From positions 932,242-996,241 of the forward strand of contig CP070671.1 in assembly GCA_020351875.1 (NCBI GenBank): a stretch of 64,000 bases of DNA, in the 5' to 3' direction. The position numbers and the translations under genes are program-made. The notes below the pieces were generated by a model, which did not search any database, had not been told where the DNA came from, and worked only from the letters and a program-made list of their open reading frames with translations. Shown here piece after piece: positions 6,290-45,901 of the stretch (positions within the stretch are counted from its first letter, which is position 1; every line of letters starts with the position of its first letter). This DNA comes from Chromatiales bacterium. Its GTDB lineage: Bacteria > Pseudomonadota > Gammaproteobacteria > Steroidobacterales > GCA-2729495.

Positions 6290-8800
6290 ATGGTCGCTGG
6301 AAACGACATGGAAGGCTCTGCAACCAGCCTGGACGACTTGCTCCAGCTGCTGGATCAATTTCTTGCGGGCCGCGTTCACGTCGACCTGCTGCTGGCATCG
6401 GTCACGCGAACTCTCGCGAGTGATCTCACGGCCGCGCACGTGTTGCAGGAAAAAATCGACGGCGCCCTGCGCACCGGCGACTTGCCGGAACGCGTGTGGC
6501 AACGCATCACCGCCAAAGTCGACCATGCCCTGTCTGAGGATGCGCCCACCGATTGGTCCGAAGATCCGGCCACGGCTCCGCAGCCGCCAGATTCGCTGGC
6601 CGACAAGGACGTATCCGGCGCGCAGGCGGCCGGCCCGCCGGTGCTGGAGGATCGAGTGGCAACACGCGCGGGGAACACGCGCGCAAGCGGTGAGGAAAAC
6701 ATGCCCCCCGGCACCCTCCTCGGCGACCGCTACGTTATCGTATCGCGGGCGCACACGGGCGGCATGGGCGTTGTCTACAAAGCCCTGGATCGCACCCGGA
6801 AAGAAGCCGGCGACCAGAACCCGTGGGTCGCGATCAAGGTCATCAGCCAGGCGTTCGCCCGGCATCCGCAGGCCCTCGAAACCCTGCAGCGCGAAGCGGA
6901 AAACTGCCGGTCACTGGTGCACGAGAATATCGTGCGGGTATTTGATTTCGAGCGTGATGGCCGCAACTGCTTCATCACGATGGAGTGGCTGGAAGGCGAA
7001 TCGCTGGTGCAGTTGCTGGACCGCGCCCGGCAGAAACCACCGAACCCGACCCAGCTGAGACGCATCATCCTGGGACTCGGCGCCGCACTCGCCCATGCGC
7101 ATTCCAAGGGCATCACTCACGCCGACGTAAAACCGGGCAACGTCTTCATCACCCACGGCGGTGAAGTCAAACTGCTGGACTTCGGCGCCGCCCGCGATTC
7201 AACAGGCAAGAGCGGTGCCCACGTGGACGCGCGGACACCCGCCTACTCCAGCTGCGAGGTATTGGAAGGCAATGCGCCGTTGCCCAGCGACGACGTGTTT
7301 TCCTTCGCGCTGGTGGTCTACCGCTTGCTCACCGGCCAACGCGCCCTTGGTCAGAACAATGCGCTGGAGGCAGAAGCGGCCCAGCTGAATCCGCAACCGG
7401 TCAGCGGTTTAGCCGATCAGGCCTGGCAGGCGCTGGCCCGGGGCCTGGCTCTCAGGCGCGCGGATCGATACCCCGATGTCGCGAGCTTCCTCGAGGGCTT
7501 CAGCGCGCCACCGGCCGCATCCAGTGCAGCCGCGCCGGCCGCGGCTGGCTCTGGTTCGGCGAGCGATTCGGCGCACGCAACCGCTACTTCCGAGGTGGCC
7601 GCTGCCCCGGCGACAGCCGAAGCCACTGCGGAGCTCGCGCCACGCCCCGCGCCCGTTGCCATGCCTGTCGCAGAAGAGGCCGATACGGCCGCAGAAACCG
7701 GCATTGCAGAAACAGAGTTGCCTGAACTCGACGACGCTGGCTCCGCTTGGGGCCGGCCGGCACTGATCGCAGCGTCGCTCGTCGCCTGCGCCGGCGCTGC
7801 CTGGTGGTTCTGGAGCAGCGAACCCAAGCCCGCGCCGGGGGCGGCCTCACCGCGGGCCACGCAGCCGGCGCCCAAACCGCCGCCGGCGCGCCGGACCGAA
7901 GAACTCGAACCGGTTGTGGTGCAGGCGGAACGACTTGGCAGCCTGTTCCCGCTCGAGATCATCGAACCAGGCGCTACCGGCAATTTCGCTTTCGACGCGC
8001 AACCAGAAGCGACGACGGCAAAAGCCATCGCACTGGCTGCAATGGCCCAGTCAGAATTGACTGCCACGCCGAGGCCCGATGCACAGCTGGCGTCGGTCGT
8101 TGCAGCGCCGGCCGTGTCACCGCCCGCGCGCGCCGGTGGCGCAACGGCTGATGTTGCCGCACCCACCGAGAAAGCAGCGCCAAAGCCCAAGGCAGAGCCG
8201 GAGCCGAAACCGAAAGCCAAGACCGAACCGAAGCCGAAGCCGAAACCCAAGCCGAAACCCAAGCCGAAAGCGCAGCCGAAACCGAAGCCCAAGGCACCTG
8301 ACGAGTCGAAGTCGGCCGGCGCTGTCGCCGATACCGCCAGTGACACGCCGCCCAAGGCGGCATCGCAGTTGGCACGCCCGGCGCCGAAAGCCCCAGACAG
8401 CGGGCCGGGTGAGTCACCTGCCGTTCCCGCGCCGACGGCGCCCCCGGTACCCCAGCCAGGCCCTGCCGCACCCGACGACTACGGCCCGTTGCCCGATCCC
8501 GGCGACAAAGGCCCACCGGAAGTCGCAATGTCGGAGCTGGATTTCGATCGCTTCGTGGAACCGCGCTATCCGCGCTCGCGGTCCCTCAGAAAGACGCGTG
8601 GGTGGGTGGAAATTGAGTTCCAGGTAACCCCTGACGGCAAGACGAGCAACGTGCAGATCGTGGGCTCGTCCCCACCGGAAGTCTTCGATGAAGTGGCCAG
8701 CTCCGCGGTGTCGAAGTGGCGCTTCAAGCCAAAACTGATCGATGGTGAGCCGGTCACGGTCACGAGCCTCGTCCGGCTGCGCTTCGAGCCGAAACGCTGA
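6290..8800 (+). CDS. Membrane Ser/Thr protein kinase fused to a TonB C-terminal domain
   Basis: An 836-residue fusion. Residues 1-140 are a helical then Pro-rich leader. Residues about 147-405 are a Hanks-type kinase: glycine loop HTGGMGVVYKA, Lys183 in VAIK, Glu202 in helix C, catalytic HADVKPGN (Asp279) and DFG (297-299), all intact. An Ala/Pro-rich linker leads to one membrane helix (about 489-508, ending WWFW). A second linker contains many KP repeats (about 635-675), as in TonB. Residues about 745-835 match a TonB C-terminal domain (EPRYPRSRSLRKTRGWVEIE and WRFKPKLIDGEPV). The likely topology is cytoplasmic kinase with periplasmic TonB end. Start ATG at 6290 follows AGGA with good spacing. 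Targets unknown. Confidence 0.9.
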   Translation: MVAGNDMEGSATSLDDLLQLLDQFLAGRVHVDLLLASVTRTLASDLTAAHVLQEKIDGALRTGDLPERVWQRITAKVDHALSEDAPTDWSEDPATAPQPPDSLADKDVSGAQAAGPPVLEDRVATRAGNTRASGEENMPPGTLLGDRYVIVSRAHTGGMGVVYKALDRTRKEAGDQNPWVAIKVISQAFARHPQALETLQREAENCRSLVHENIVRVFDFERDGRNCFITMEWLEGESLVQLLDRARQKPPNPTQLRRIILGLGAALAHAHSKGITHADVKPGNVFITHGGEVKLLDFGAARDSTGKSGAHVDARTPAYSSCEVLEGNAPLPSDDVFSFALVVYRLLTGQRALGQNNALEAEAAQLNPQPVSGLADQAWQALARGLALRRADRYPDVASFLEGFSAPPAASSAAAPAAAGSGSASDSAHATATSEVAAAPATAEATAELAPRPAPVAMPVAEEADTAAETGIAETELPELDDAGSAWGRPALIAASLVACAGAAWWFWSSEPKPAPGAASPRATQPAPKPPPARRTEELEPVVVQAERLGSLFPLEIIEPGATGNFAFDAQPEATTAKAIALAAMAQSELTATPRPDAQLASVVAAPAVSPPARAGGATADVAAPTEKAAPKPKAEPEPKPKAKTEPKPKPKPKPKPKPKAQPKPKPKAPDESKSAGAVADTASDTPPKAASQLARPAPKAPDSGPGESPAVPAPTAPPVPQPGPAAPDDYGPLPDPGDKGPPEVAMSELDFDRFVEPRYPRSRSLRKTRGWVEIEFQVTPDGKTSNVQIVGSSPPEVFDEVASSAVSKWRFKPKLIDGEPVTVTSLVRLRFEPKR

Positions 8801-11696: not shown

Positions 11697-13922
11697 ATGG
11701 GGACGATGTCACTCCAGCTGCGGCGGGCCGGACTGCTTGCCATTGCCGCGCTTGCGCTGACCGGCTGCAGCGACGGCGACGATGGCAATGATGGTGCACC
11801 GGGTGAGCAGGGTCCGCCGGGCCCGGCGACGCCCGTTGATGCGGGAGACGCCACCGAGATCGAAGCGACCATCGACGGTGTGACCATTGCGAGCCAACCG
11901 GTGGTGAACTTCCGCCTGGCCGACGGTAGCGGCGCCCCCGTGGTGGGTCTCCAAGACGGTTCGATCAGTTTTTACATCGCCAAGCTGACACCGGGCACCA
12001 ACGGCAACGCCAGCGCCTGGCAGAGTTACATCAATCGCGTCGAGAGCGCGGGCGCCGGGCCGTGGCCGGGCACCGAAGACCAGGTGCAGGCCACGTCGGA
12101 AAACGTGAACGGCACGTACGGTACCCTCGACGACAACGGCGACGGCAGCTACCAGTACACCTTCGCGACTGACGTCGCCAACGTGCCCGGCGTTCCCTAC
12201 GACCCGGACCTGACTCACCGCGTCAGTTTCGAGATTCGCGGCCTGGTGCCGGTGCTGAACCCGACTTACGACTTTCAGCCATCCTCCGGCGCGACGACGA
12301 ATCTGTTCACCCGCAAGATCGTGAAGGACGCGACCTGCAACGTGTGCCATGACCAGCTGGCCCTGCACGGCAATGGTCGTTTCACGGTCGACAACTGCAT
12401 GACCTGCCACAACCCCGGCTCGACGGACGCGCAGAGCACCAACACCGTGGACATGAAGGTCATGACCCACAAGATTCACTTCGGCGCGGAGCTACCCAGC
12501 GTACAGGCCGGCGGCGAGTACGCGATCTGGGGTTTCCGTAACGTCAAACACGATTACTCGGGCGTGATCTATCCCGGCGATATCCTGGACTGTCGGGGCT
12601 GCCATGACGAAGGCGACCAGGAAACGCCCGATGCGGCCAACTGGTTCAACGTGCCGACGATGGAAGCCTGCGGTTCCTGCCACGACGACGTGAACTTCGA
12701 GACCGGCGAGAACCATGCCACCGGCATCAGCGCGACCAACAACGAGTGCACGATCTGCCACGGCGGAGACAGCCAGCTACGCGCCGACCGCGTGCACGTG
12801 AACGCGGCCCGGGAGGCGGCCAAGGCCTTCCAGTACAACATCATCGACATCGTGGACACGGGCGCCGGCGAATCTCCGACCGTATCCTTCTCGGTGACGG
12901 ATCCGACCAACGGCGATGCGCCTTACGACATTCTGAACGACGAGCCATTTACGTCTGGCCAGAGCAGCCTGGCCATCAATATCTCCTGGGACACACTGGC
13001 CCTGAACAACCTGGGCAGCGACTCGGGCAGCGCCTCCGGCGCACCGGCCCAGCCCATCGAGATTGACCTGCTCGACGGCAGTTCCTCTGACCCCGACGGC
13101 GACCTTGTCTTCGAAGCCACGGCGGCCGATGCGATTCCACTGCTGACCGAAGGTTCGGGCATCGTGGCCATGGAGGGTCATCCGGCGGTAGATCTCGACG
13201 GCGACGGTGACAATGAAGACCGTGGCGATCGTGTCCCGGCGACGGGTGCATCAGATACCTTCGCCATCACCGACGGGACGCCGCAGGATCGCGCGGCCAT
13301 CGTGACGATCGAGCAGTGCAACGCCTGCCACGTACCGCTGAGCCTGCATGGCAACAATCGTACGGACAACATCGAGCTGTGCCTCACCTGCCACACGTCC
13401 GACACCACCGACATCCGGCGCCGCGGCCAGGCGGGGTGCGACAGTGATACCTGCATCGACGGCAAGGACGAGGAAACTGTGGAGTTCAAGACCATGATCC
13501 ACGCGATCCACGCCGGCGAAGAGCGCACGAACGGCTACGTCGCTTACGCGTTCGGTGGCAGGGCTGCCGACTTCGGCGAAGTGGTGTTCCCCGGCAACCT
13601 GGCGAACTGCGAGAACTGCCACCGGCCGGGCACCTACTATCCCGTCGGCGTGTCGGCGCTGGCCGCGACGATCGACACGGGTGCGGACATCGACTCGCCG
13701 TTCGACGATCTCAACATCACGCCCAATTCGGCTGCGTGCTGGGGTTGTCACGACCGGCCCGAGGCCGTATCGCACATGACACTGAACGGCGGCGCCTTCG
13801 ACGCGATTCAGCAGCCCGATGGCACGCTAATCTCGCAGTCGGCAGGCACGGTCATAGAGGCCTGCGATGTCTGCCATGGCGAAGGCCGGATTGCCGACGT
13901 CGGCGAAATTCACGCCCATTGA
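11697..13922 (+). CDS. OmcA/MtrC-family surface decaheme c-type cytochrome lipoprotein
   Basis: Extracellular terminal of an outer-membrane electron conduit, passing electrons to minerals, other acceptors or cells. Ten CxxCH motifs fall into two pentaheme groups (about residues 214, 234, 299, 325, 351 and 540, 561, 637, 680, 722), separated by about 180 residues of beta-rich sequence, as in MtrC/OmcA. The N-terminus has a lipobox LTGC (Cys24) followed by six collagen-like Gly-X-Y triplets (27-44). An extra Cys pair near 580-585 (CDSDTC) is not a heme motif. Start ATG at 11697 has a strong GAGGGGG site. The next gene overlaps its 3' end, indicating an operon. Confidence 0.95.
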   Translation: MGTMSLQLRRAGLLAIAALALTGCSDGDDGNDGAPGEQGPPGPATPVDAGDATEIEATIDGVTIASQPVVNFRLADGSGAPVVGLQDGSISFYIAKLTPGTNGNASAWQSYINRVESAGAGPWPGTEDQVQATSENVNGTYGTLDDNGDGSYQYTFATDVANVPGVPYDPDLTHRVSFEIRGLVPVLNPTYDFQPSSGATTNLFTRKIVKDATCNVCHDQLALHGNGRFTVDNCMTCHNPGSTDAQSTNTVDMKVMTHKIHFGAELPSVQAGGEYAIWGFRNVKHDYSGVIYPGDILDCRGCHDEGDQETPDAANWFNVPTMEACGSCHDDVNFETGENHATGISATNNECTICHGGDSQLRADRVHVNAAREAAKAFQYNIIDIVDTGAGESPTVSFSVTDPTNGDAPYDILNDEPFTSGQSSLAINISWDTLALNNLGSDSGSASGAPAQPIEIDLLDGSSSDPDGDLVFEATAADAIPLLTEGSGIVAMEGHPAVDLDGDGDNEDRGDRVPATGASDTFAITDGTPQDRAAIVTIEQCNACHVPLSLHGNNRTDNIELCLTCHTSDTTDIRRRGQAGCDSDTCIDGKDEETVEFKTMIHAIHAGEERTNGYVAYAFGGRAADFGEVVFPGNLANCENCHRPGTYYPVGVSALAATIDTGADIDSPFDDLNITPNSAACWGCHDRPEAVSHMTLNGGAFDAIQQPDGTLISQSAGTVIEACDVCHGEGRIADVGEIHAH

Positions 13923-14859
13923 TGTAGTGAGGCGTGGCCTGAAAATATCCCTAGCGCTGGCCATGCTCTGCATGGCCAGCGCAGTTTGGCCACAAGATGA
14001 CGACAGCGGGCCCGCGCTTAGCCGCGGCGGCGCCGACACCTGCATAAACTGTCATCGGGATGAAAAACTGCCGGGGGTCGAGGGCAGGCTGCAGCGCTTG
14101 GTCGCCAGCCCGCATGGCGAACGCGGCGATCCGCGCACCCCCTTCGGCCAACTCGAATGCGAGAGCTGCCACGGCCCGCAGGGCGACCACCCCAGGGGCG
14201 GGAAAGAAACAATCATCGATTTCGGCGCGAATGATACAGCGTCGCCCGTCGACGAGCAGAACGCCGCGTGCCTGGGCTGCCACGAGAACCCCGTGGGCAA
14301 CGACTGGCACGCGGGCGAGCACGCCGCCCAGGACCTGAGCTGCGCCTCCTGCCACCGGGCCCATTTGGCTCGCGACCCGGTGCTGGCAAGCGAGACCCAG
14401 ACAGAAGTCTGCTACCAGTGCCATCAGCGCCAGCGCGGGCAGGTGCAGAAGCCGTATGCACACCCGGTGCGTTTCGGTCGCATGGACTGCAGCAGTTGCC
14501 ACGCACCGCACGGCTCGGCCACGGAAGGTTCGCTGCGCCGGCTGACCCTGAATGAAACCTGCTACGAGTGCCACGCGGAAAAACGCGGGCCCTTCGCCTT
14601 CGAACACCAGCCGGTGACCGAGGATTGCTCGCTGTGCCACGCGCCGCACGGCTCCAATCATCCGGCCATGCTAACGCGCCGTGCGCCGCTGCTGTGCCAG
14701 CAGTGCCATTCGCAGGCGGGACACCCGAGCCTGAGCCTGACCTCATCGGGGCTCCCGAATGATTCACCCTCCGGTTTCCTGCTCGGCGGCAGCTGCCTGA
14801 ACTGCCACGCGCAGGTCCACGGCTCCAATCACCCGTCCGGCATCACCCAGATGCGTTGA
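13867..14859 (+). CDS. DmsE/MtrA-family periplasmic decaheme c-type cytochrome
   Basis: The heme wire that sits inside the outer-membrane barrel and connects periplasmic electron carriers to the surface cytochrome. All ten CxxCH motifs are present in about 330 residues, from CINCH near the mature N-terminus to CLNCH near the C-terminus, many followed by APHGS or RAH as in MtrA/DmsE. Start uncertain: ATG at 13867 has AGAGG upstream but overlaps the preceding gene by 56 bp and puts about 20 residues before the signal peptide. GTG at 13927 would give a clean leader (RRGLKISLALAMLCMASAVW) but has no clear ribosome site. The 3' end overlaps the barrel gene by one base (TGATG). Confidence 0.94.
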   Translation: MSAMAKAGLPTSAKFTPIDVVRRGLKISLALAMLCMASAVWPQDDDSGPALSRGGADTCINCHRDEKLPGVEGRLQRLVASPHGERGDPRTPFGQLECESCHGPQGDHPRGGKETIIDFGANDTASPVDEQNAACLGCHENPVGNDWHAGEHAAQDLSCASCHRAHLARDPVLASETQTEVCYQCHQRQRGQVQKPYAHPVRFGRMDCSSCHAPHGSATEGSLRRLTLNETCYECHAEKRGPFAFEHQPVTEDCSLCHAPHGSNHPAMLTRRAPLLCQQCHSQAGHPSLSLTSSGLPNDSPSGFLLGGSCLNCHAQVHGSNHPSGITQMR

Positions 14860-16961
14860 TGATGAGCGCTGCGAAGACAAGCTGGCGTGGTGCCGTCGGG
14901 CTGACCATCGGGCTGGCAGTCACCGGGACGGCGGCTGCGGCAGACCGACCGGCCGGCTGGCAATGCGCCAACTGCCCCGCCCCCGAGGGCGTGCAGCTGA
15001 AAACAACCGCGGGTGGCGGCTACGTGTCGGACGACAGCTTCAAGTTCGGCGACTACACGGGGCTCAACGATGATGGTGGGTTTTTTGTCGGCGATTTTAC
15101 GGCCGACTACTTCGGCGACGACGCCTGGCGCTGGCGCGCGGAGGGTCAGGACCTCGGGCTGAATTCGCGCCAGCTGAGCCTGGAAGGCGGCCGGCAGGGC
15201 CTGCTGGAGCTGCGCTTCGGTTACGAGGAACTGCCCCGGCACCTGTTCGAGACCGCCCTCACCCCGTACCCGACACCGGGCGCAGACTCACTCGCCCTGC
15301 CGGCCTCGTGGGTCCGTGCGCCGAGCACCGGCGGCATGACCGCGCTGGATTCCACGTTGCGCCCGGTCGATGTCGAATGGGACCGGGAGAGCTGGAACGC
15401 CGGGTTCACTTTCGTCTACACACCAAACTTCAGTTACAACGTGGACTATCGCCACGTCGAACGTGACGGCAAGCAACTGCGGGGCGTGAGCTTCCTGACT
15501 GCCGCAACGACGCTGTTGCGGCCGCTGGACGACTCGACGGACATGGTGGACGCCGGGCTGAACTATACGGCCGACACCTGGAATGCACGGCTTGCGTACT
15601 TCGGGTCTTTTTACAGGAACGACTCCGACCGCCTGAACTGGGAGAACGCCTTTACCGCGCCGGCGCCAGGCGCGGACGACGGCCAGACCACGCTGGAACC
15701 CGACAACGATTTTCAGCAGATTTCACTGTCGGGCCAGTATCACGGCTGGGAGCGCACGCGGGTATCCGGCCGTGTCGCGGTGGGCAGAATGGAGCAGGAC
15801 AATGGCGTGCTGCCTTACACCGTGAATCCCAACCTGGCGGGTGGCCCGTTGCCGCGGAGCCGGTACAACGGCGAGGTGGACACCATCCATGCCGACGTGC
15901 GCGTGTCGTCCCGGCTGGCAAAGTCGCTCAGGCTGCGCGGCGATATCGTCTATGACAAACGCGACAATGACACCCAGCGCGACACCTGGAACTACGTGGT
16001 GACGGATGCGGTCGCCGCGGGACTGCCTCGCGAGAACCTGCCCTACGGCTACGAGCGCTACCGCATCGCGCTGTCGGCCAGCTACCGGTTCCCGTTTGGT
16101 ACCAACGGTCGGCTCGGCTACCAATACGACAACAACGACCAGGACTTCACCGAGGTCGACGAAACGGAAGAACACGAGGCGTGGGCAGAGCTGCGCATCA
16201 ACCCGCTGGATTTCGCGAGCCTGCGGCTGAAGTACGCCTACGCGGACCGGGACGGGGACGACTACAGCCCGGTGCCGGCCACCCAGCCACCCCAGAACCC
16301 GCTGATGCGCAAATACAATCTGGCTGATCGCAACCGGGAAAGCCTGGAAATCGCCCTGAGTGTGCAGCCCCTGGAACGGCTCGACCTGACCTTTACCGCG
16401 CTGGTTGCCGAAGACGACTACGATGACAGCGACCTGGGCCTGCAAGAGGGGGAATTCCGAAACTTCACGCTCGACGCCGGTCTGCGGTTGCCGGGCGATG
16501 CCGTGCTGACCGGCCAGCTCGGCTACGACAAGTTCGAGACCACGCAATTCGGCAGCCAGTCTTTCAGCACGGGCGACTGGACCGCCGACCAGGAAGACGA
16601 AAGCTGGATTTCGGGCGTGAGCCTGGACCTGCCCCGACTCATCGACCGCGTGCGTGCCCGCATCGGTTACACCTACATCGACACCACCGGCGAGATCGAC
16701 AACAACACCAGCGGTCTCGACTCCGCGTTCCCGGACCTGGAGACCAACCGGCACCGGGTGGAAGTGGATATCAGGTACGAACTGCGCGACAACATCGACA
16801 TCGGCCTGGCCTACCTGTACGAGGACTACGATGTCGATGACTGGACGCTGGACGGCGTCGCGCCCGACACCGTCGGCAACCTCCTGGCCACCGGCGCGCG
16901 CTGGCTCGGCTACGACGTCAACCTCGTGACGCTGTCCTTTACCTGGTCGCTGGACCGCTAA
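14859..16961 (+). CDS. MtrB/PioB-family outer-membrane beta-barrel of a decaheme conduit
   Basis: A 700-residue porin-like barrel that encloses the periplasmic decaheme cytochrome and joins it to the surface cytochrome. It has a signal peptide ending TGTAAAA, the CxxC motif CANC (36-39) known from the N-terminus of MtrB proteins, and many alternating aromatic/charged strands of the type RVRARIGYTYIDT and DIGLAYLYEDYDV. The C-terminal strand LVTLSFTWSLDR ends in the aromatic-rich pattern of outer-membrane proteins. Start ATG at 14859 overlaps the previous stop (TGATG), implying translational coupling. The gene order surface cytochrome, periplasmic cytochrome, barrel is that of mtrCAB. Confidence 0.94.
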   Translation: MMSAAKTSWRGAVGLTIGLAVTGTAAAADRPAGWQCANCPAPEGVQLKTTAGGGYVSDDSFKFGDYTGLNDDGGFFVGDFTADYFGDDAWRWRAEGQDLGLNSRQLSLEGGRQGLLELRFGYEELPRHLFETALTPYPTPGADSLALPASWVRAPSTGGMTALDSTLRPVDVEWDRESWNAGFTFVYTPNFSYNVDYRHVERDGKQLRGVSFLTAATTLLRPLDDSTDMVDAGLNYTADTWNARLAYFGSFYRNDSDRLNWENAFTAPAPGADDGQTTLEPDNDFQQISLSGQYHGWERTRVSGRVAVGRMEQDNGVLPYTVNPNLAGGPLPRSRYNGEVDTIHADVRVSSRLAKSLRLRGDIVYDKRDNDTQRDTWNYVVTDAVAAGLPRENLPYGYERYRIALSASYRFPFGTNGRLGYQYDNNDQDFTEVDETEEHEAWAELRINPLDFASLRLKYAYADRDGDDYSPVPATQPPQNPLMRKYNLADRNRESLEIALSVQPLERLDLTFTALVAEDDYDDSDLGLQEGEFRNFTLDAGLRLPGDAVLTGQLGYDKFETTQFGSQSFSTGDWTADQEDESWISGVSLDLPRLIDRVRARIGYTYIDTTGEIDNNTSGLDSAFPDLETNRHRVEVDIRYELRDNIDIGLAYLYEDYDVDDWTLDGVAPDTVGNLLATGARWLGYDVNLVTLSFTWSLDR

Positions 16962-20623: not shown

Positions 20624-21688
20624 CTAGGTGGACCCCCCGGGAAGCTCCAGCAGCGTAAACCGCGCACCGCGTTTACCGGTCAGGTACACGTCACAATCCC
20701 CCCACTCCGCCGGCAGCGTCCACGTCACCCCTTCCTTGGGCTTGTGTTTCGCGCGACCCCACTCGCAACGAAAATCCACCTGGTCGAGCTTGCCGCGTAT
20801 CGCCTCGAGCGAGACCTGGCGGCGCAGCAGGCGGCGTGTCCACAACGGCCTGCCGGCGACGTCGACCAGCGCTCCCTGCACGCTCAGGACTTCCCGGCCG
20901 GTGGCCAGTTCCCGCAGCGCAGTCGCCGCCTCACGGAGCTGCGGGTAGCCGTCCAGCGCGCCGGACTGGCGTTCGAGCCGACTGTAGACCATCAGGGCCC
21001 CGGCATGGTCGTTCGCGCGCAGCCGCAACACGAACATCTTGCGCAGCGCGGCCTGGTAGAAATCCTTTTCCAGGTAGGCCACACCGCCGCGTGTCGCCCG
21101 CTCCAGGCCCGCCAGGGCCTTGCCATCGTCGCCGGCCGCTTCACCGATCAGCCCGTACAACGCCCACAGGCGCGCGGTTTCATAGAGATTCCACCCGTCA
21201 TGGTCGCGAAGGCTTTGCCATTCCTGCTCTGCCCCGACGGCATCGCCCTCCGCCAGCCGCTCGGATGCGCGCGTGTAGCCTTCCCGAAAGCGCAGGCCGG
21301 CACCACGGCGCGGCAGGTCCATGGCAAAGCTCAGCACCAGGCGTGTCTGGCGTTGTGGCACCGGCTCACCGTCCAGCGTGGCCGGATCGTAGCGCCAGCT
21401 CTTGACCGCGCGCAGCGCGGCCTTGTCGAAATCCGGTTCGCCGCTGGAGTCCTCAATCACCGGATCAGCGACCGCCCCGTTCTCGCGAATCACAAAGCTC
21501 AGCATGACCCAGCCTTCCTGGCTGCGCCGCTTTGAAGCGCCGGGATATTTGGGGGGTGTCTGCTTGAGTATCGTGGCCCGGGTGCCCGCATAGCGGGGCG
21601 CGGTGGCCTGGCTCCAGGCTGCCGACACGACGACAGTGCAGAGGAAGGCCAGGACCGGACCTGCAAACCGGACAGCCAGCGGGCTCAG
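20624..21688 (-). CDS. Periplasmic TonB C-terminal-domain protein with probable CTG start
   Basis: About 354 residues. After a signal peptide comes a TonB-type C-terminal domain (about 40-125: PPKYPGASKRRSQEGWVMLS, then SWRYDPATLDGEPVPQRQ), followed by a helical TPR-like region and a C-terminal domain of unknown type. The first standard start (GTG at 21628) would cut the signal peptide in half. Reading upstream in frame gives LAVRFAGPVLAFLCTVVVSA, with no ATG, GTG or TTG. A CTG at 21688, overlapping the CBS gene stop as CTGA and preceded by GGAG, gives the full leader. There is no TonB membrane anchor with Pro-rich linker, so it is not a standard energy transducer. Confidence 0.75.
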   Translation of the reverse strand: MSPLAVRFAGPVLAFLCTVVVSAAWSQATAPRYAGTRATILKQTPPKYPGASKRRSQEGWVMLSFVIRENGAVADPVIEDSSGEPDFDKAALRAVKSWRYDPATLDGEPVPQRQTRLVLSFAMDLPRRGAGLRFREGYTRASERLAEGDAVGAEQEWQSLRDHDGWNLYETARLWALYGLIGEAAGDDGKALAGLERATRGGVAYLEKDFYQAALRKMFVLRLRANDHAGALMVYSRLERQSGALDGYPQLREAATALRELATGREVLSVQGALVDVAGRPLWTRRLLRRQVSLEAIRGKLDQVDFRCEWGRAKHKPKEGVTWTLPAEWGDCDVYLTGKRGARFTLLELPGGST

Positions 21689-40985: not shown

Positions 40986-41576
40986 ATGCGCGTGAACAGA
41001 CTTCTCGTCGCCGCGACCGCGTTGGCCTTACTGGCCGGCTGCGCCGCCCCGGCACCGACCATTCGCTCGAACGAAGACCCGGCCGCCAACTTTGCGAATT
41101 TCAAGACCTATGACTACGTCCCGGAACTCGCGGGCGACGACTTCGGTTACCAGAGCTTCCTGGTGCAGTACCTGAAAAATGCGATCAATCGGGAGATGCA
41201 GGCCCGGGGCTACACCCTGTCGCCTGATGATCCGGACCTGCTCGTGAACTTCTACGTGAACACGAAGGAAAAAATCCGCTCGACGACGACGCCCACCATG
41301 AGCGGCGGCTATTACGGCTACCGTCGCGGCTACTACGGCGGCTGGGGCGGTGGCTACGAAACCACCGTGACCCAATACACGGAAGGTACGCTGAGCATCG
41401 ACATCGTCGATGCGGTGCGCAAGCAACTGGTATGGGAAGGCGTTGCAGTGGGCCGCATCCGCCAGAGCACGCTGGACGACCTGGAGGGCGCCGCCAACCG
41501 CGTCGTGCCGCAGATCTTCGCGGAGTTTCGGCACCAGGCAGGAACCAGCGCCTTAACGCCGCAACCGACCTCCTAG
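40986..41576 (+). CDS. DUF4136-domain lipoprotein
   Basis: A 196-residue outer- or inner-membrane lipoprotein with lipobox LLAGC (Cys19). The DUF4136 pattern is visible as NFKTYDYVP near the mature N-terminus, then AINREMQARGYTL, DLLVNFYVNTKEK and the end EGVAVGRIRQ. A Gly/Tyr-rich loop (GGYYGYRRGYYGGWGGGY, about 106-123) is an insertion. Function unknown. Its 3' end overlaps the next minus-strand gene by 24 bases, tail to tail. Confidence 0.88.
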   Translation: MRVNRLLVAATALALLAGCAAPAPTIRSNEDPAANFANFKTYDYVPELAGDDFGYQSFLVQYLKNAINREMQARGYTLSPDDPDLLVNFYVNTKEKIRSTTTPTMSGGYYGYRRGYYGGWGGGYETTVTQYTEGTLSIDIVDAVRKQLVWEGVAVGRIRQSTLDDLEGAANRVVPQIFAEFRHQAGTSALTPQPTS

Positions 41577-43820
41577 TTCCAGCGCGCGCTCGGTATTGCC
41601 GCTGCGCTGGTACAAACTGGCCAGCGCGGCCATCAGCGACGGATCGTCGCTGAACCGCACGAGCGACTGCTCCAGGTAGGCCAAGGCGGCTTCGTTTTCC
41701 CCCTGCGCGTCCATGATCAGCGCATAGGCCAGCGCGAAACGCGGCGTGGCGTCCTGGGCTTCCGCCGCAATGCGCAACTCTTCGTAGGCGGCCTCGGCGC
41801 GGCCCTGCCGCACCAGGCTCAGACCGAGCGCATGGTGCAGGGCCGCCTGTCCGGGTGCGGCCTCGAGCCCGGCGCGCAACAGGGATTCTCCCACCGGCTC
41901 GTTGCCCTGCGCGCGGTACAGGTCGGCCAGGTTCACGTAGGCCGGCACGAATTGCGGGTTCAGCTCGATTGCGGTGGTGTACTCGGCAATGGCGCCATCG
42001 AATCGGCCGAGGTGCCGCTGCAGGTTACCCAGGTTCACGTGCGACTCGGCCCGCTCTGCGTTGACGAGTTGTGCCGCAATGTACTCGTCGACCGCGGAGT
42101 CGAAGGCTGCCTGGGACGCCGGTGGAATCACTTCCGGCCCGAGGGGCGCCAGCACCATGACCCCCGCCAGCCGTACCGCCAGCACCGGGTCTGCCAGGAT
42201 CGCGGGACCGAATTGTACGCGCGCCCCGGGCGCGGCCGTTTGCAGCGCCCGCGCAGCACCCAGGCGCAGTAACGGGTCACCGCTCTGCAGCTGCTGGCCG
42301 ACGACAGTCGCTCCCAGGGAGTCCGACGACAGGTCGAGGCGGGCCATTGCCGACGCACGAATGATGTTCGGCACCAGCGCATCGGAAGCGAGCCCGAGCC
42401 GCAGGTTACGCGCTTCCAGCGGCAACGCTTCCGCACCGGCGAGTCGTCGCGTCCAGTGCACCGACTCGCCCGGCGGCTCGCGCCCCGCTTCCCGGAGCAC
42501 TTCAGCCGCCCACGCCGCCTCCTGGTCCGCATGGCAATTGAGGCAGGACACCGGCGTACCGAACTCCACTGCCAGCGCGGCACGCGGAATCCGGAAACTG
42601 TGATCGTGACGCACATCCACCTGCATGAAGGTCGTTGGCGGCATGTGGCATTCCACGCAGTTCGCGCCCGGGCTGTCGGCTTCGTGCAGGTGATGGTCGG
42701 GCGCAGCAAATCGAGCCCCATCGTGACACTGCAGGCACACCTGCTGACCGGGCGCGCGCAACGCGAGCGAATGGGGTTCGTGGCAATCGCTGCACGTGAC
42801 ACCCTGCTGGTACATCCGGCTCTGCAGGAAGGAGCCGTAGACATAGACCTCGTCGCGAACCTGGCCATCGGCGTGGTACAGCAGCGGCGCGATCAGCGCC
42901 GGCTGGTAGCTGTCGAGGAACTGCCCACCTGACCAGGTGCTGGCACCGATCCGGGAACGGCGCGAGTGGCACGCCGCGCAGGTGTTGATTTCGCGGGTGG
43001 TACGGCGGGGCTCGCTGCGCCGGCTGTTGCCGGTGTCCGGATCCATGATCCACGTGACGCCGGCCCGCTCGTCCAGGCTTAGTTCCAAGCCACGGCTCGC
43101 GTCGTCGGTCGGTTGCCTGGCCCACGCGACGTGGCGGCTGCCCGGTCCGTGGCAGGCCTCGCACGCAACATCGATCTCGGCAAAGCTGGTGTCGAAGCGG
43201 TCCGTCTCCACGTCGTACTGCTTGGTCAGCGCGGTGGAATGGCAATCAGCGCACATGGTTTCCCAGTTCTGGCTGGGCTGCGTCCAGTGCAGGATATCCG
43301 TATGGTCGATGGCTTCATCACCGTACACGTGGAACCATCGTTGCCCGCCCGCATCGACCGCACGGCCGTCCCAGGCCAGCGACAGGGCCTGCACCTTGCC
43401 GTCCGGTAACTCCAGCAGGTACTGCTGCAGCGGGTCCACGCCAAACACGTAGCGCACCGGGAACTCGGCGAGTGCACCGTCTGCGCCATCCGTAGTGACC
43501 AAAAACGCATCGCCACGGCGCTCAAAGCGGCTGTCGACGCCCTGCCGGTTCAGTTCGGCGGCATCAAAGTCGCCCAGCACGCGGCCCGGCGCCGGCAACT
43601 GCATCGACAGGTCGTGATGGGAGTCCTGCCACAACTCGAATTGCTCCGCGTGGCATGCCGCGCAGGCTTTCGCACCCACGTAGGCCGGTGCACCCGCGTC
43701 GGCGCTTGCAGGCGCTGGTGCGGTTGCATCGGGCTTACCGCAGGCAGACAACAGGAGCACCCAGACGAGCTGCAGAAAGAGCGGGCGTGCACGGCGCCAG
43801 GACAGGGAAAGCGGCTGCAT
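41553..43820 (-). CDS. Octaheme c-type cytochrome lipoprotein with C-terminal TPR repeats
   Basis: About 755 residues from the ATG at 43820. The signal peptide ends in lipobox LLSAC (Cys27). Eight CxxCH motifs lie between about residue 53 and 400 (CAACH, CADCH, CEACH, CAACH, CSDCH, CLQCH, CVECH, CLNCH), in the pattern of cytochrome c554/NrfA-related multihemes. A HEAT-like helical stretch follows, then TPR repeats to the end (GRFDGAIAEYTTAIELNPQF and similar). The enzyme activity is unknown; such fusions occur in multiheme respiratory complexes. A weak ribosome site leaves the start a little uncertain. It lies 55 bp downstream of the ExbB-TonB gene on the same strand. Confidence 0.88.
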   Translation of the reverse strand: MQPLSLSWRRARPLFLQLVWVLLLSACGKPDATAPAPASADAGAPAYVGAKACAACHAEQFELWQDSHHDLSMQLPAPGRVLGDFDAAELNRQGVDSRFERRGDAFLVTTDGADGALAEFPVRYVFGVDPLQQYLLELPDGKVQALSLAWDGRAVDAGGQRWFHVYGDEAIDHTDILHWTQPSQNWETMCADCHSTALTKQYDVETDRFDTSFAEIDVACEACHGPGSRHVAWARQPTDDASRGLELSLDERAGVTWIMDPDTGNSRRSEPRRTTREINTCAACHSRRSRIGASTWSGGQFLDSYQPALIAPLLYHADGQVRDEVYVYGSFLQSRMYQQGVTCSDCHEPHSLALRAPGQQVCLQCHDGARFAAPDHHLHEADSPGANCVECHMPPTTFMQVDVRHDHSFRIPRAALAVEFGTPVSCLNCHADQEAAWAAEVLREAGREPPGESVHWTRRLAGAEALPLEARNLRLGLASDALVPNIIRASAMARLDLSSDSLGATVVGQQLQSGDPLLRLGAARALQTAAPGARVQFGPAILADPVLAVRLAGVMVLAPLGPEVIPPASQAAFDSAVDEYIAAQLVNAERAESHVNLGNLQRHLGRFDGAIAEYTTAIELNPQFVPAYVNLADLYRAQGNEPVGESLLRAGLEAAPGQAALHHALGLSLVRQGRAEAAYEELRIAAEAQDATPRFALAYALIMDAQGENEAALAYLEQSLVRFSDDPSLMAALASLYQRSGNTERALELGGRLRR

Positions 43821-43875
43821 GCGCGCAGTCAGCCCGAGCGGTGCGAGCTTGTCAAATACTGGCGGGCGCCTGGCG

Positions 43876-45042
43876 CTATTCTTCGACGTCGAAGCGGATG
43901 TAGTGCAGCACGCCGGTGACTTCAACTGCCTCGCCGTCCACGATCCGTGGCTTGTATTTGAACTTCAATGCGGCCTGCACGGCTGCGCGTTCGAAGATCG
44001 GATCCGTGGATTCCAGGACTTCGACGTCTTTCACCGAGCCAGCGGCGGTCACGGTGAAGCGCAGCAGCACCCAGCCGGCGAGCCCCCTGGCCGCGGCCCG
44101 GCGCGGGTAGATCGGCGCCACCTTCACCAGCGGCATGTAGTCTGCGTCCGCGTTCTCGAAGCTGGTGACACCGGTCACGTTCAATGTGAAGCCCGTGTCC
44201 AGCTGGCCCCCTCCGGTGCTGAAATCCACACCAATGGCCCCGGCGCTGTCGCTCTCGGCGATGTCCGGAATGACGGTGCTGTCCGGTGCCGTTTCCGCCG
44301 TGGCGACCTTCTCAGGTTTCACCTGCTTGCGCTCGATGGTCTCGTCACGCTGGATGCGCACGAAGTCCGCGATGTAAATCCGGGTTTCTTCCGTCAGCGC
44401 ACGCTCACCGGTTTCGATCAGGCGCTGCATGCCGTAAACGAGCAGCATCGTAATCAGGAAGGCCATGCTCAGCGCGATGATCAATCGCACGGCCTGGTTT
44501 AGTGGCGGCAGGCGTGTCGGCGGAAACTCCACCACCGCGTCATGGGTGCGCAAGGTGCTGATGTTGTGGCTGCTGACCCGCGCCAGCAGGACGGCGGGAA
44601 ACACGCCGCTCAGTGCGCCGACCATGCCGGCCATGGTTGTCATCGTGGCCTGGGCCACACCCCCGGCCACCGCGCGCGGCGAGCTGTTACCCATGGCAGC
44701 CATCACATCGAAGATGACAATCATGCCGGTGACCGTGCCCAGCAGGCCAAGCAACGGACACACCGCGGCGAGCGTGCGAATCATCGGTATGCCGGCCTGC
44801 AGGCGCTGGCCGAGCTGGGAGATTGCGCCGGAGCGCACCGCCTCGAAAGACCAGGAGCCTTCATCGGGCCGCTCGCTCAGCTCGTCGAAAGCCTGCTTCA
44901 CACGCTGGCGATGCTCGGTGCGCAGGTACAGCACGCGCTCGATGATCATCGTCCACATCGCGAAGATCACCCACGCGATGATGACGATCACCTGGCCGCC
45001 GCGGTCCAGGAAATCCCGGATGGTTTCGAAAATATCGTACAA
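43876..45042 (-). CDS. ExbB-TonB fusion protein
   Basis: A 388-residue fusion. Residues about 10-165 are a MotA/TolQ/ExbB proton-channel subunit with three helices (17-37, 90-115, 135-155) and the core LAAVCPLLGLLGTVTGMIVI followed by ATMTTMAGM. Directly after, residues 185-207 form a fourth helix with the sequence style of TonB2 anchors (AVRLIIALSMAFLITMLLVY), a periplasmic linker, and a TonB C-terminal domain (about 300-388: KVAPIYPRRAAARGLAGWVL and KFKYKPRIVDGEAVEVTG). No ExbD is fused or present nearby. It could energise TonB-dependent uptake with an unlinked ExbD. The octaheme gene follows by 55 bp. Confidence 0.9.
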   Translation of the reverse strand: MYDIFETIRDFLDRGGQVIVIIAWVIFAMWTMIIERVLYLRTEHRQRVKQAFDELSERPDEGSWSFEAVRSGAISQLGQRLQAGIPMIRTLAAVCPLLGLLGTVTGMIVIFDVMAAMGNSSPRAVAGGVAQATMTTMAGMVGALSGVFPAVLLARVSSHNISTLRTHDAVVEFPPTRLPPLNQAVRLIIALSMAFLITMLLVYGMQRLIETGERALTEETRIYIADFVRIQRDETIERKQVKPEKVATAETAPDSTVIPDIAESDSAGAIGVDFSTGGGQLDTGFTLNVTGVTSFENADADYMPLVKVAPIYPRRAAARGLAGWVLLRFTVTAAGSVKDVEVLESTDPIFERAAVQAALKFKYKPRIVDGEAVEVTGVLHYIRFDVEE

Positions 45043-45160
45043 GGGGCCTATTTCCCCCCTTTTTGCAGGCTTGTTTGTTGCTTATTACTGAATTAAATCA
45101 GCTATATTCGCCCCGGCAATCCGTATAAGTGCGGAGTCCCGCCCCGGAATATAACCTGCC
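45043..45160. promoter_or_regulatory. AT-rich divergent promoter region
   Basis: The 118 bp between the ExbB-TonB gene and the metallopeptidase gene is the most AT-rich stretch nearby. On the plus strand TTGCTT (45078-45083) and TATATT (45103-45108) are separated by 19 bases, slightly long for sigma70. An imperfect palindrome CTGAATTAAATCAG (45088-45101) lies between them and could be an operator. Prediction by eye. Confidence 0.35.
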
Positions 45161-45901
45161 ATGCAGCTGGACCTGCAATTTCCCGACCTGCCGTCCTACC
45201 GGGTGCGCCGCTCCGCGCGCGCCCGGCGGCCGAGCGTGTCCGTGTGCCTGCACGACGGGGTCATACTGACCTTACCGCAACGCTTCGACGAGCGCCGGGT
45301 GCCGGCGCTGCTGGCCGAATGGCGGCCGTGGATCGACCGCCAGCTCAGGCACATCGATGGGCACCGGGCCACGCTGCCGCTGCACATGACGAGCCCCCTG
45401 CCCGCCAGGATCCAGCTGCCGGCCGCGGGCCAGGCTTGGAACGTGGCCTACCAGGCCAGCGGTGACCCAAAATCGCGCATCAACGAAGGCTCGGGCCGGC
45501 TGCTGGTCAAGACCCCCACGGCCAATCACAAGGCACAGTCCGGGGCAGCGCTGCGCCGCTGGCTCGCGCGCAAGGCGCGGACCCACCTGCAAACAGAACT
45601 GGACCGGCTGGCCGGGCAACACGCGCTGCGCTACCGCAAACTCACGATTCGCGGCCAGCGCACGCGCTGGGGCAGCTGTTCGTCCAACGGGACGATCAGC
45701 CTGAACTACCTGCTGATGTTCCTGGCGCCGGACGCGGCCAGTTCAGTGGTGCTCCATGAGCTCTGTCATACCCGCTATATGAGTCACGGACCGCGCTTCT
45801 ACGGGCTGCTGGAACGGCTGGAACCCCGCTACCGGGAATTGGACCGCGCAGTGCGGGACGGCTGGCAGACCGTGCCCGCATGGGCGTGGCCGTCGCGCTA
45901 A
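45161..45901 (+). CDS. YgjP-like M48-family zinc metallopeptidase
   Basis: A 246-residue soluble protein of the DUF45/YgjP family (WSS1/SprT-like zincin fold). The zinc motif HELCH is followed by a third His in MSHGPRFY. The conserved block before it, RTRWGSCSSNGTISLNYLLM, is typical of YgjP and of bacterial M48-like hydrolases found near restriction and DNA-repair genes. The physiological substrate is unknown. Single gene, divergent from the ExbB-TonB fusion. Confidence 0.9.
   Translation: MQLDLQFPDLPSYRVRRSARARRPSVSVCLHDGVILTLPQRFDERRVPALLAEWRPWIDRQLRHIDGHRATLPLHMTSPLPARIQLPAAGQAWNVAYQASGDPKSRINEGSGRLLVKTPTANHKAQSGAALRRWLARKARTHLQTELDRLAGQHALRYRKLTIRGQRTRWGSCSSNGTISLNYLLMFLAPDAASSVVLHELCHTRYMSHGPRFYGLLERLEPRYRELDRAVRDGWQTVPAWAWPSR

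Follow-up and report, generated by a model that had tools for sequence, protein, structure and literature searches.

Within the window, by which we mean the whole 64,000-nucleotide stretch of DNA that we analyzed, a 388-codon frame with a TTG start runs along the minus strand from 45042 to 43876 and encodes an ExbB domain, followed by a TonB anchor, a linker and a TonB C-terminal domain. A G-rich stretch 5' of the TTG codon is a possible ribosome-binding site for this ExbB-TonB fusion gene; a promoter scan of positions 43700-45400 called no promoter, a result that carries no weight in either direction. The gene and its parts are the following:

43876..45042, minus strand: ExbB-TonB fusion gene, 388 codons, TTG start
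44578..45042, minus strand: ExbB2-type domain, residues 1-155 (Pfam; overlay of the AlphaFold model, residues 7-171, on ExbB/TolQ structures)
44941..44997, minus strand: membrane helix 1, residues 16-34 (hydropathy, AlphaFold model)
44710..44766, minus strand: membrane helix 2, residues 93-111, which includes T103 (hydropathy, alignment to E. coli ExbB)
44581..44637, minus strand: membrane helix 3, residues 136-154, with T136 as its first residue (hydropathy, alignment to E. coli ExbB)
44494..44577, minus strand: ExbB/TonB joint, residues 156-183, predicted to be cytoplasmic; length kept, sequence drifting (comparison of the fusions)
44428..44493, minus strand: TonB membrane anchor (helix 4), residues 184-205 (hydropathy, comparison set, AlphaFold model)
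44341..44373, minus strand: candidate D-box (putative ExbD-binding strand), residues 224-234, with the core D-F-V-R at 226-229 (sequence pattern)
44128..44340, minus strand: periplasmic linker, residues 235-305 (sequence comparison)
43879..44127, minus strand: TonB C-terminal domain, residues 306-388 (Pfam, structure overlay)

The initial annotation had described this frame as ExbB followed by a TonB2-like anchor, a linker and a C-terminal domain, and we found that both Pfam and hydropathy agree with that description. MotA_ExbB (PF01618) matched residues 48-162 (E 1.3e-20; 73.9 bits against a curated cut-off of 22.9), and TonB_C (PF03544) matched residues 309-384 (E 1.2e-16; 61.3 bits against a cut-off of 24.6). 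Hydropathy predicted four membrane segments (16-34, 93-111, 136-154 and 184-202), and these predicted segments fit three ExbB helices plus a TonB anchor. Such a join would be topologically sound, because the C-terminal end of ExbB and the N-terminal start of TonB both lie in the cytoplasm. The initial annotation had also held that ExbD was missing from the polypeptide, and an ExbD-like domain was indeed not found: a Pfam scan at E <= 1 reported no domain besides MotA_ExbB and TonB_C, and a profile of the two ExbDs of the host's ordinary TonB2 operon gave -1.1 to 1.4 bits on the four known fusions (see below), the host fusion scoring 1.4 bits as against 264.8 bits for one of the ExbDs from which the profile was made. 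The fusion fell below the cut-off of the NCBIfam exbB2 equivalog TIGR02805 (34.8 against 135.35 bits), as did the host's unfused ExbB2 (30 bits).

An AlphaFold2 single-chain model of the fusion, made with 32 alignment rows, had a mean pLDDT of 78 and a pTM of 0.57; by ten-residue blocks, pLDDT was 81-97 up to residue 210 and fell below 50 at 220-229 and at 257-310. Residues 300-388 of the model overlaid TonB (6i97_D; Z 10.2, rmsd 2.4, 85 aligned), and residues 7-171 overlaid ExbB (5sv0_C; rmsd 2.8, 164 aligned) with a Z of 11.6, a value within reach of unrelated helical bundles; yet each of the top 16 rows was an ExbB or a TolQ, in line with the sequence searches.

The architecture is not confined to the host: we found three further full-length orthologues, in G001 (64% identity), G003 (60-61%) and G009 (49%; another genus), in answer to the search of other genomes that the initial annotation had suggested. 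Two of the three also stand on public contigs that carry a Gammaproteobacteria MAG label (CAKZWQ010000017.1 and JASJBD010000060.1). Together with the host (G000), whose assembly is a single contig of 3.49 Mb, these genomes make up 4 of 40 in the family, and the other 36 gave no full-length match. A sequencing error that joined two genes, one of the two objections that the initial annotation had raised against itself, is excluded because the three full-length orthologues stand in separate assemblies. To such an error, or to a decaying pseudogene, we assign next to no probability and regard it as already refuted: the patchy distribution alone speaks for it, but the fusion is common to four separate assemblies, one of them a single contig, it contains no stops, and its dN/dS ratios are low in both domains. 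Across the six pairs of fusion genes these ratios, which are rough because dS is saturated, were 0.18-0.43 when taken over the full gene; the ExbB part gave 0.11-0.42, the TonB C-terminal domain 0.10-0.20 and the linker (238-305), which is looser, 0.17-0.84. We conclude that the ExbB-TonB fusion is genuine and is no assembly error; as judged from the substitution ratios, both of its halves are under purifying selection. The joint (156-183) has kept its length, and only 7-32% of its residues are identical between fusions. The fusion also evolves faster than the operon genes, as seen in ExbB identity between G000 and G001 (79% for the fusion versus 87% for the operon).

Wider searches were made with a profile of the four fusions at strict cut-offs (1e-62 for the order, 1e-70 for the class and phylum), and as a rule only the best four or five candidates per genome were scored. 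In 396 genomes of the order at 1e-62, no full-length match was obtained beyond the same four fusion genomes, and in 369 class and 398 phylum genomes at 1e-70 the host alone was matched. A sample of 339 class genomes, overlapping with the 369, was searched at 1e-45 and gave no further match covering both halves; the longest partial matches there ran from 3 to 198 (through three stops) and from 171 to 384. Given the four-fusion profile, the strict cut-offs and the few candidates scored, these searches could have overlooked fusions that derive from other families of ExbB or TonB. Separately, an ExbB-ExbD-TonB triple fusion in relatives was hinted at by rows that gave both halves an 'open frame' of the same size, 523 or, in one search, 547. 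It was ruled out at L026, L032, L118 and L128, where stops bound the TonB ORF at 210-224 residues and ExbB2, ExbD and TonB each have an ORF of their own; G083 and G622, which gave the same sign, lay outside this check.

Directly downstream of the fusion, positions 41553-43925 (minus strand) encode a multihaem cytochrome c554-like protein with TPR repeats. As a constant partner of the fusion this gene was rejected: it is present in 23 of 40 family genomes (E <= 1e-80), mostly without the fusion, as against 4 of 40 for the fusion, and in G009 it is on a different contig from the fusion. In that genome the fusion gene (L106:8346-9503) is flanked by lipid transport genes, one MlaA-like and the other MlaC-like. 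Elsewhere in the window, 6290-8800 (plus strand) encodes an 836-residue kinase-TonB chimera, with a Ser/Thr kinase domain at residues 156-362, a TonB C-terminal domain at 757-833, a long Pro/Lys-rich stretch and a hydrophobic segment between the domains (by eye). In a 334-residue ORF at 20624-21628 (minus strand), a TonB C-terminal domain lies close to the N-terminus (25-94). At 11697-16961 (plus strand) three genes stand side by side, one MtrC/OmcA-like, one for an NrfB-like multihaem cytochrome and one for an MtrB/PioB barrel, and together they resemble an extracellular electron transfer conduit.

The best other matches of both halves within the host genome fall in a single operon at C1:1.530-1.532 Mb, with identities of 47% for ExbB2 and 45% for TonB. 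The order of this operon is DUF3450, a 462-residue ExbB-like protein, ExbB2, ExbD, ExbD, TonB2 and an open frame of ~450 codons. Every fetched locus with separate ExbB2 and TonB2 genes had at least one ExbD between them, and among the fetched loci ExbB2 and TonB2 shared one frame in the four fusion genomes only. In all four of these genomes, two exbD genes separate the operon ExbB2 from TonB2. The initial annotation had suggested a check for an exbD unlinked to the fusion, and such genes are present: the host genome has six matches to PF02472 (ExbD), none of them inside the 64-kb window, and both host operon ExbDs carry the membrane Asp motif LTPMLDVVF. The motif is likewise present in both operon ExbDs of G000, G001, G003 and G009, and no exbD was found near the other three fusions in the 16-17.5 kb read around each. 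In the 16 family genomes whose operon gap was read, two exbD genes were present in 7, including all 4 fusion genomes, and one was present in 9, none of which has a fusion; relatedness alone could explain this correlation.

We built trees of each half from 73 rows (score at least 150, coverage 85%, identical rows dropped; the TonB set still includes L003, a truncated version of the host TonB2). The fusions formed one clade in both trees (ExbB, 100/99; TonB, 99/94), a result consistent with a single origin in a TonB2-type cluster. The branch leading to the clade is long; in the TonB tree the clade groups with family f2 (97/76, modest) and not with the operon TonBs of the host family. The landmark-to-landmark span across the joint is 59, 60, 60 and 60 residues in the four fusions, which by a count made by hand is ~10 residues longer than the ends of unfused ExbB2 and TonB2 joined to each other; thus, neither partner is visibly cut at the joint. 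From these results, we conclude that the gene probably arose by a single fusion of duplicated exbB2 and tonB2 genes of the TonB2 type, with loss of the intervening exbD genes. This retains much of the origin first proposed, namely loss of exbD from an exbB2-exbD2-tonB2 order, in that ExbB2 and TonB2 flank ExbD in the host operon and no shortening of either partner is visible at the joint. That proposal needs amending in two respects: two exbD genes lie between the partners, not one, and the fusion is an extra copy, because the intact TonB2 operon is still in the genome.

In an alignment with E. coli ExbB (5sv0), with positions counted off on the printout, T103 of the fusion corresponds to T148 and T136 to T181, and both threonines are kept in 4/4 fusions and in 69/69 unfused ExbB2 proteins. 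The Asp of ExbD engages a conserved ExbB Thr, and T148 and T181 are named as essential (PMC12905483, excerpt). The unfused proteins have 51 ExbB columns with conservation of 95% or more, and all four fusions retain 41 of these. At eight positions (14, 80, 92, 109, 110, 130, 135 and 149), the residue common to the fusions is rare in unfused ExbB2. Two of these changes, I110 and T135, occur in 4/4 fusions and 0/69 unfused proteins, all 69 of which have V at 110 and P at 135; T135 directly precedes membrane helix 3. Because six of the eight fall within model helices 85-117 and 122-165, which hold the pore-lining TM2 and TM3, the proton path of the fusion may have changed or disappeared. The position of E176 is occupied by Q, Q, Q and K in the four fusions; its loss is a feature of the class, since K or R stands there in 49/69 unfused ExbB2 proteins.

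On the TonB side, the initial annotation had remarked upon an anchor helix without Asp or His. This is true of the fusion: Asp, Glu and His are absent from the anchor in 4/4 fusions. It is, however, ordinary for the TonB2 class and not special to the fusion, because the same holds for 68/69 unfused TonB2 anchors. With no His in the anchor window of any of the four fusions, the SHLS anchor motif is absent. The linker measures 100-104 residues in the fusions (104 in the host) versus 95-108 in the 69 unfused TonB2 proteins, and 32 of the 45 TonB columns that are at least 90% conserved are kept in the fusions. A D-box-like core is also kept, as [DE]F[VI]R in 4/4 fusions and as [DE][FI][VI]R in 64/69 unfused TonB proteins; the candidate D-box matches the core alone of the published seven-residue hydrophobic/hydrophilic pattern (PMC10907165, excerpt). 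Over the full stretch 222-237 identity between fusions is no more than 31-62%, and invariant columns are weakly enriched at the candidate D-box (5/16 versus 5/61; one-sided p = 0.03). At this site the AlphaFold model has a low-confidence helix (227-239) and not a strand. The helix is not decisive, because the D-box is described as unstructured until bound (PMC12905483, excerpt).

On the strength of these comparisons, we think it rather likely that the gene encodes a pre-joined subunit of ring and arm, derived from duplicated exbB2 and tonB2, that borrows ExbD in trans and energizes TonB-dependent receptors. The protein would have four membrane helices, assigned by sequence: three of ExbB and then the TonB anchor, which is predicted to run back out, placing the linker and the TonB C-terminal domain in the periplasm. 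The fusion would form the ExbB ring of a Ton motor, either alone or mixed with operon ExbB2, and an ExbD dimer would be supplied in trans by the intact TonB2 operon. The TonB arm, permanently tethered to the ring, would then pull on some of the TonB-dependent receptors. We infer the borrowing of ExbD because the residues expected to meet ExbD are kept, an Asp-bearing ExbD is present in 4/4 genomes, and the host has 34 matches to TonB-dependent receptor barrels. No receptor gene was present among the neighboring genes of the fusion that were searched for domains.

How many arms the ring would carry is where the readings part. A ring of five ExbB-TonB chains around a borrowed ExbD, with five TonB arms that never leave and with receptors still energized, strikes us as rather doubtful; if it were true, release of TonB from ExbB would not belong to the Ton cycle. 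The initial annotation had expected five fixed TonB copies per motor unless a partner is used; such a number is possible, and admixture of operon ExbB2 would lower it. A mixed ring is a serious alternative, and one that we hold to be a real possibility, if short of an even chance: the fusion would be a minor subunit in a pentamer of operon ExbB2, with one or two tethered TonB arms and the operon ExbD. This is a narrower form of the explanation that we favor, and it is serious because known complexes have one TonB (5:2:1), or one to three TolA per motor, so that five would be unusual (PMC12905483, excerpt). It also accords with the 47% identity of the ExbB half to operon ExbB2 and with the 41 of 51 conserved ExbB2 columns kept in all four fusions. 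The residues at 110 and 135, present in every fusion and in 0/69 unfused proteins, argue the other way and suggest a ring that has diverged from ExbB2.

The fusion could instead work without ExbD and without being energized, as an immobile mount that presents a TonB domain at the membrane and serves, for instance, as a scaffold or a brake on receptors. We consider such a role unlikely. In its favor are the absence of exbD from the fusion locus, the changed residues in the pore helices and the precedent of a TolQ-like pentamer gene with a vWA partner and without tolR/exbD, which has already been described (PMC12204202, excerpt). Against it, all four fusions retain the two pore threonines and the D-box-like core, and their anchor offers no acidic residue as a substitute for the Asp of ExbD. 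Quite improbable, in our judgment, is the release of two products from the fused frame, by cleavage at the joint or by internal initiation, to give an ordinary ExbB and an ordinary TonB. The sequence of the joint is unconstrained (7-32% identity), so a cut would be tolerated, but the length of the joint is kept while its sequence drifts, and inspection by eye of the printed codons at the joint revealed no conserved internal start codon in the four fusion genes.

The component parts of the fusion are known, and the covalent union of ExbB and TonB without ExbD is undescribed in the open-access literature that we found: this literature yielded no report of such a fusion, and the text consulted in an evolutionary survey of these proteins mentions TolB-Pal and CpoB-TolB-Pal fusions but not ExbB-TonB (PMC12204202). 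The best PDB match of the TonB arm is Vibrio anguillarum TonB2 (2k9k; 2.6e-22), and the Vibrio TonB2 genes are ordered ttpB2-ttpC2-exbB2-exbD2-tonB2-ttpD2 (PMC6957404, excerpt). The host operon is similar: labelled by position alone, DUF3450 takes the place of ttpB, the larger ExbB-like protein that of ttpC and the ~450-codon frame that of ttpD. Unlike the Vibrio system, the fusion has ExbB2 and TonB2 in one polypeptide and no ExbD in its locus. TolQ-like/vWA systems share with the fusion a MotA/ExbB-type ring gene that lacks a neighboring exbD; they differ in having a separate vWA partner with its own pore helix and Asp (PMC12204202, excerpt), whereas the TonB helix of the fusion is non-acidic.

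In the E. coli ExbB-ExbD-TonB complex, which has a 5:2:1 composition (PDB 9DDO), the TonB anchor contacts one of the ExbB subunits from outside (PMC12905483, excerpt). The fusion turns this contact between neighboring TonB anchor and ExbB into a covalent one, and it conserves the pore threonines. In contrast, TonB of the E. coli complex is a separate protein that has been observed at three different ExbB subunits (PMC12905483, excerpt), and its anchor has the SHLS motif with the His that the fusion lacks; moreover, the fusion has no adjoining exbD. How force is coupled from ExbB/ExbD to TonB is not understood, and in one model TonB diffuses freely before docking (PMC12905483, excerpt). A naturally tethered TonB, as in the pre-joined subunit with borrowed ExbD that we favor, would offer a one-gene test of arm release: if the fusion works, then the arm need not leave the ring. 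The fusion may also be read as an evolutionary witness that the TonB anchor adjoins ExbB, in agreement with 9DDO.
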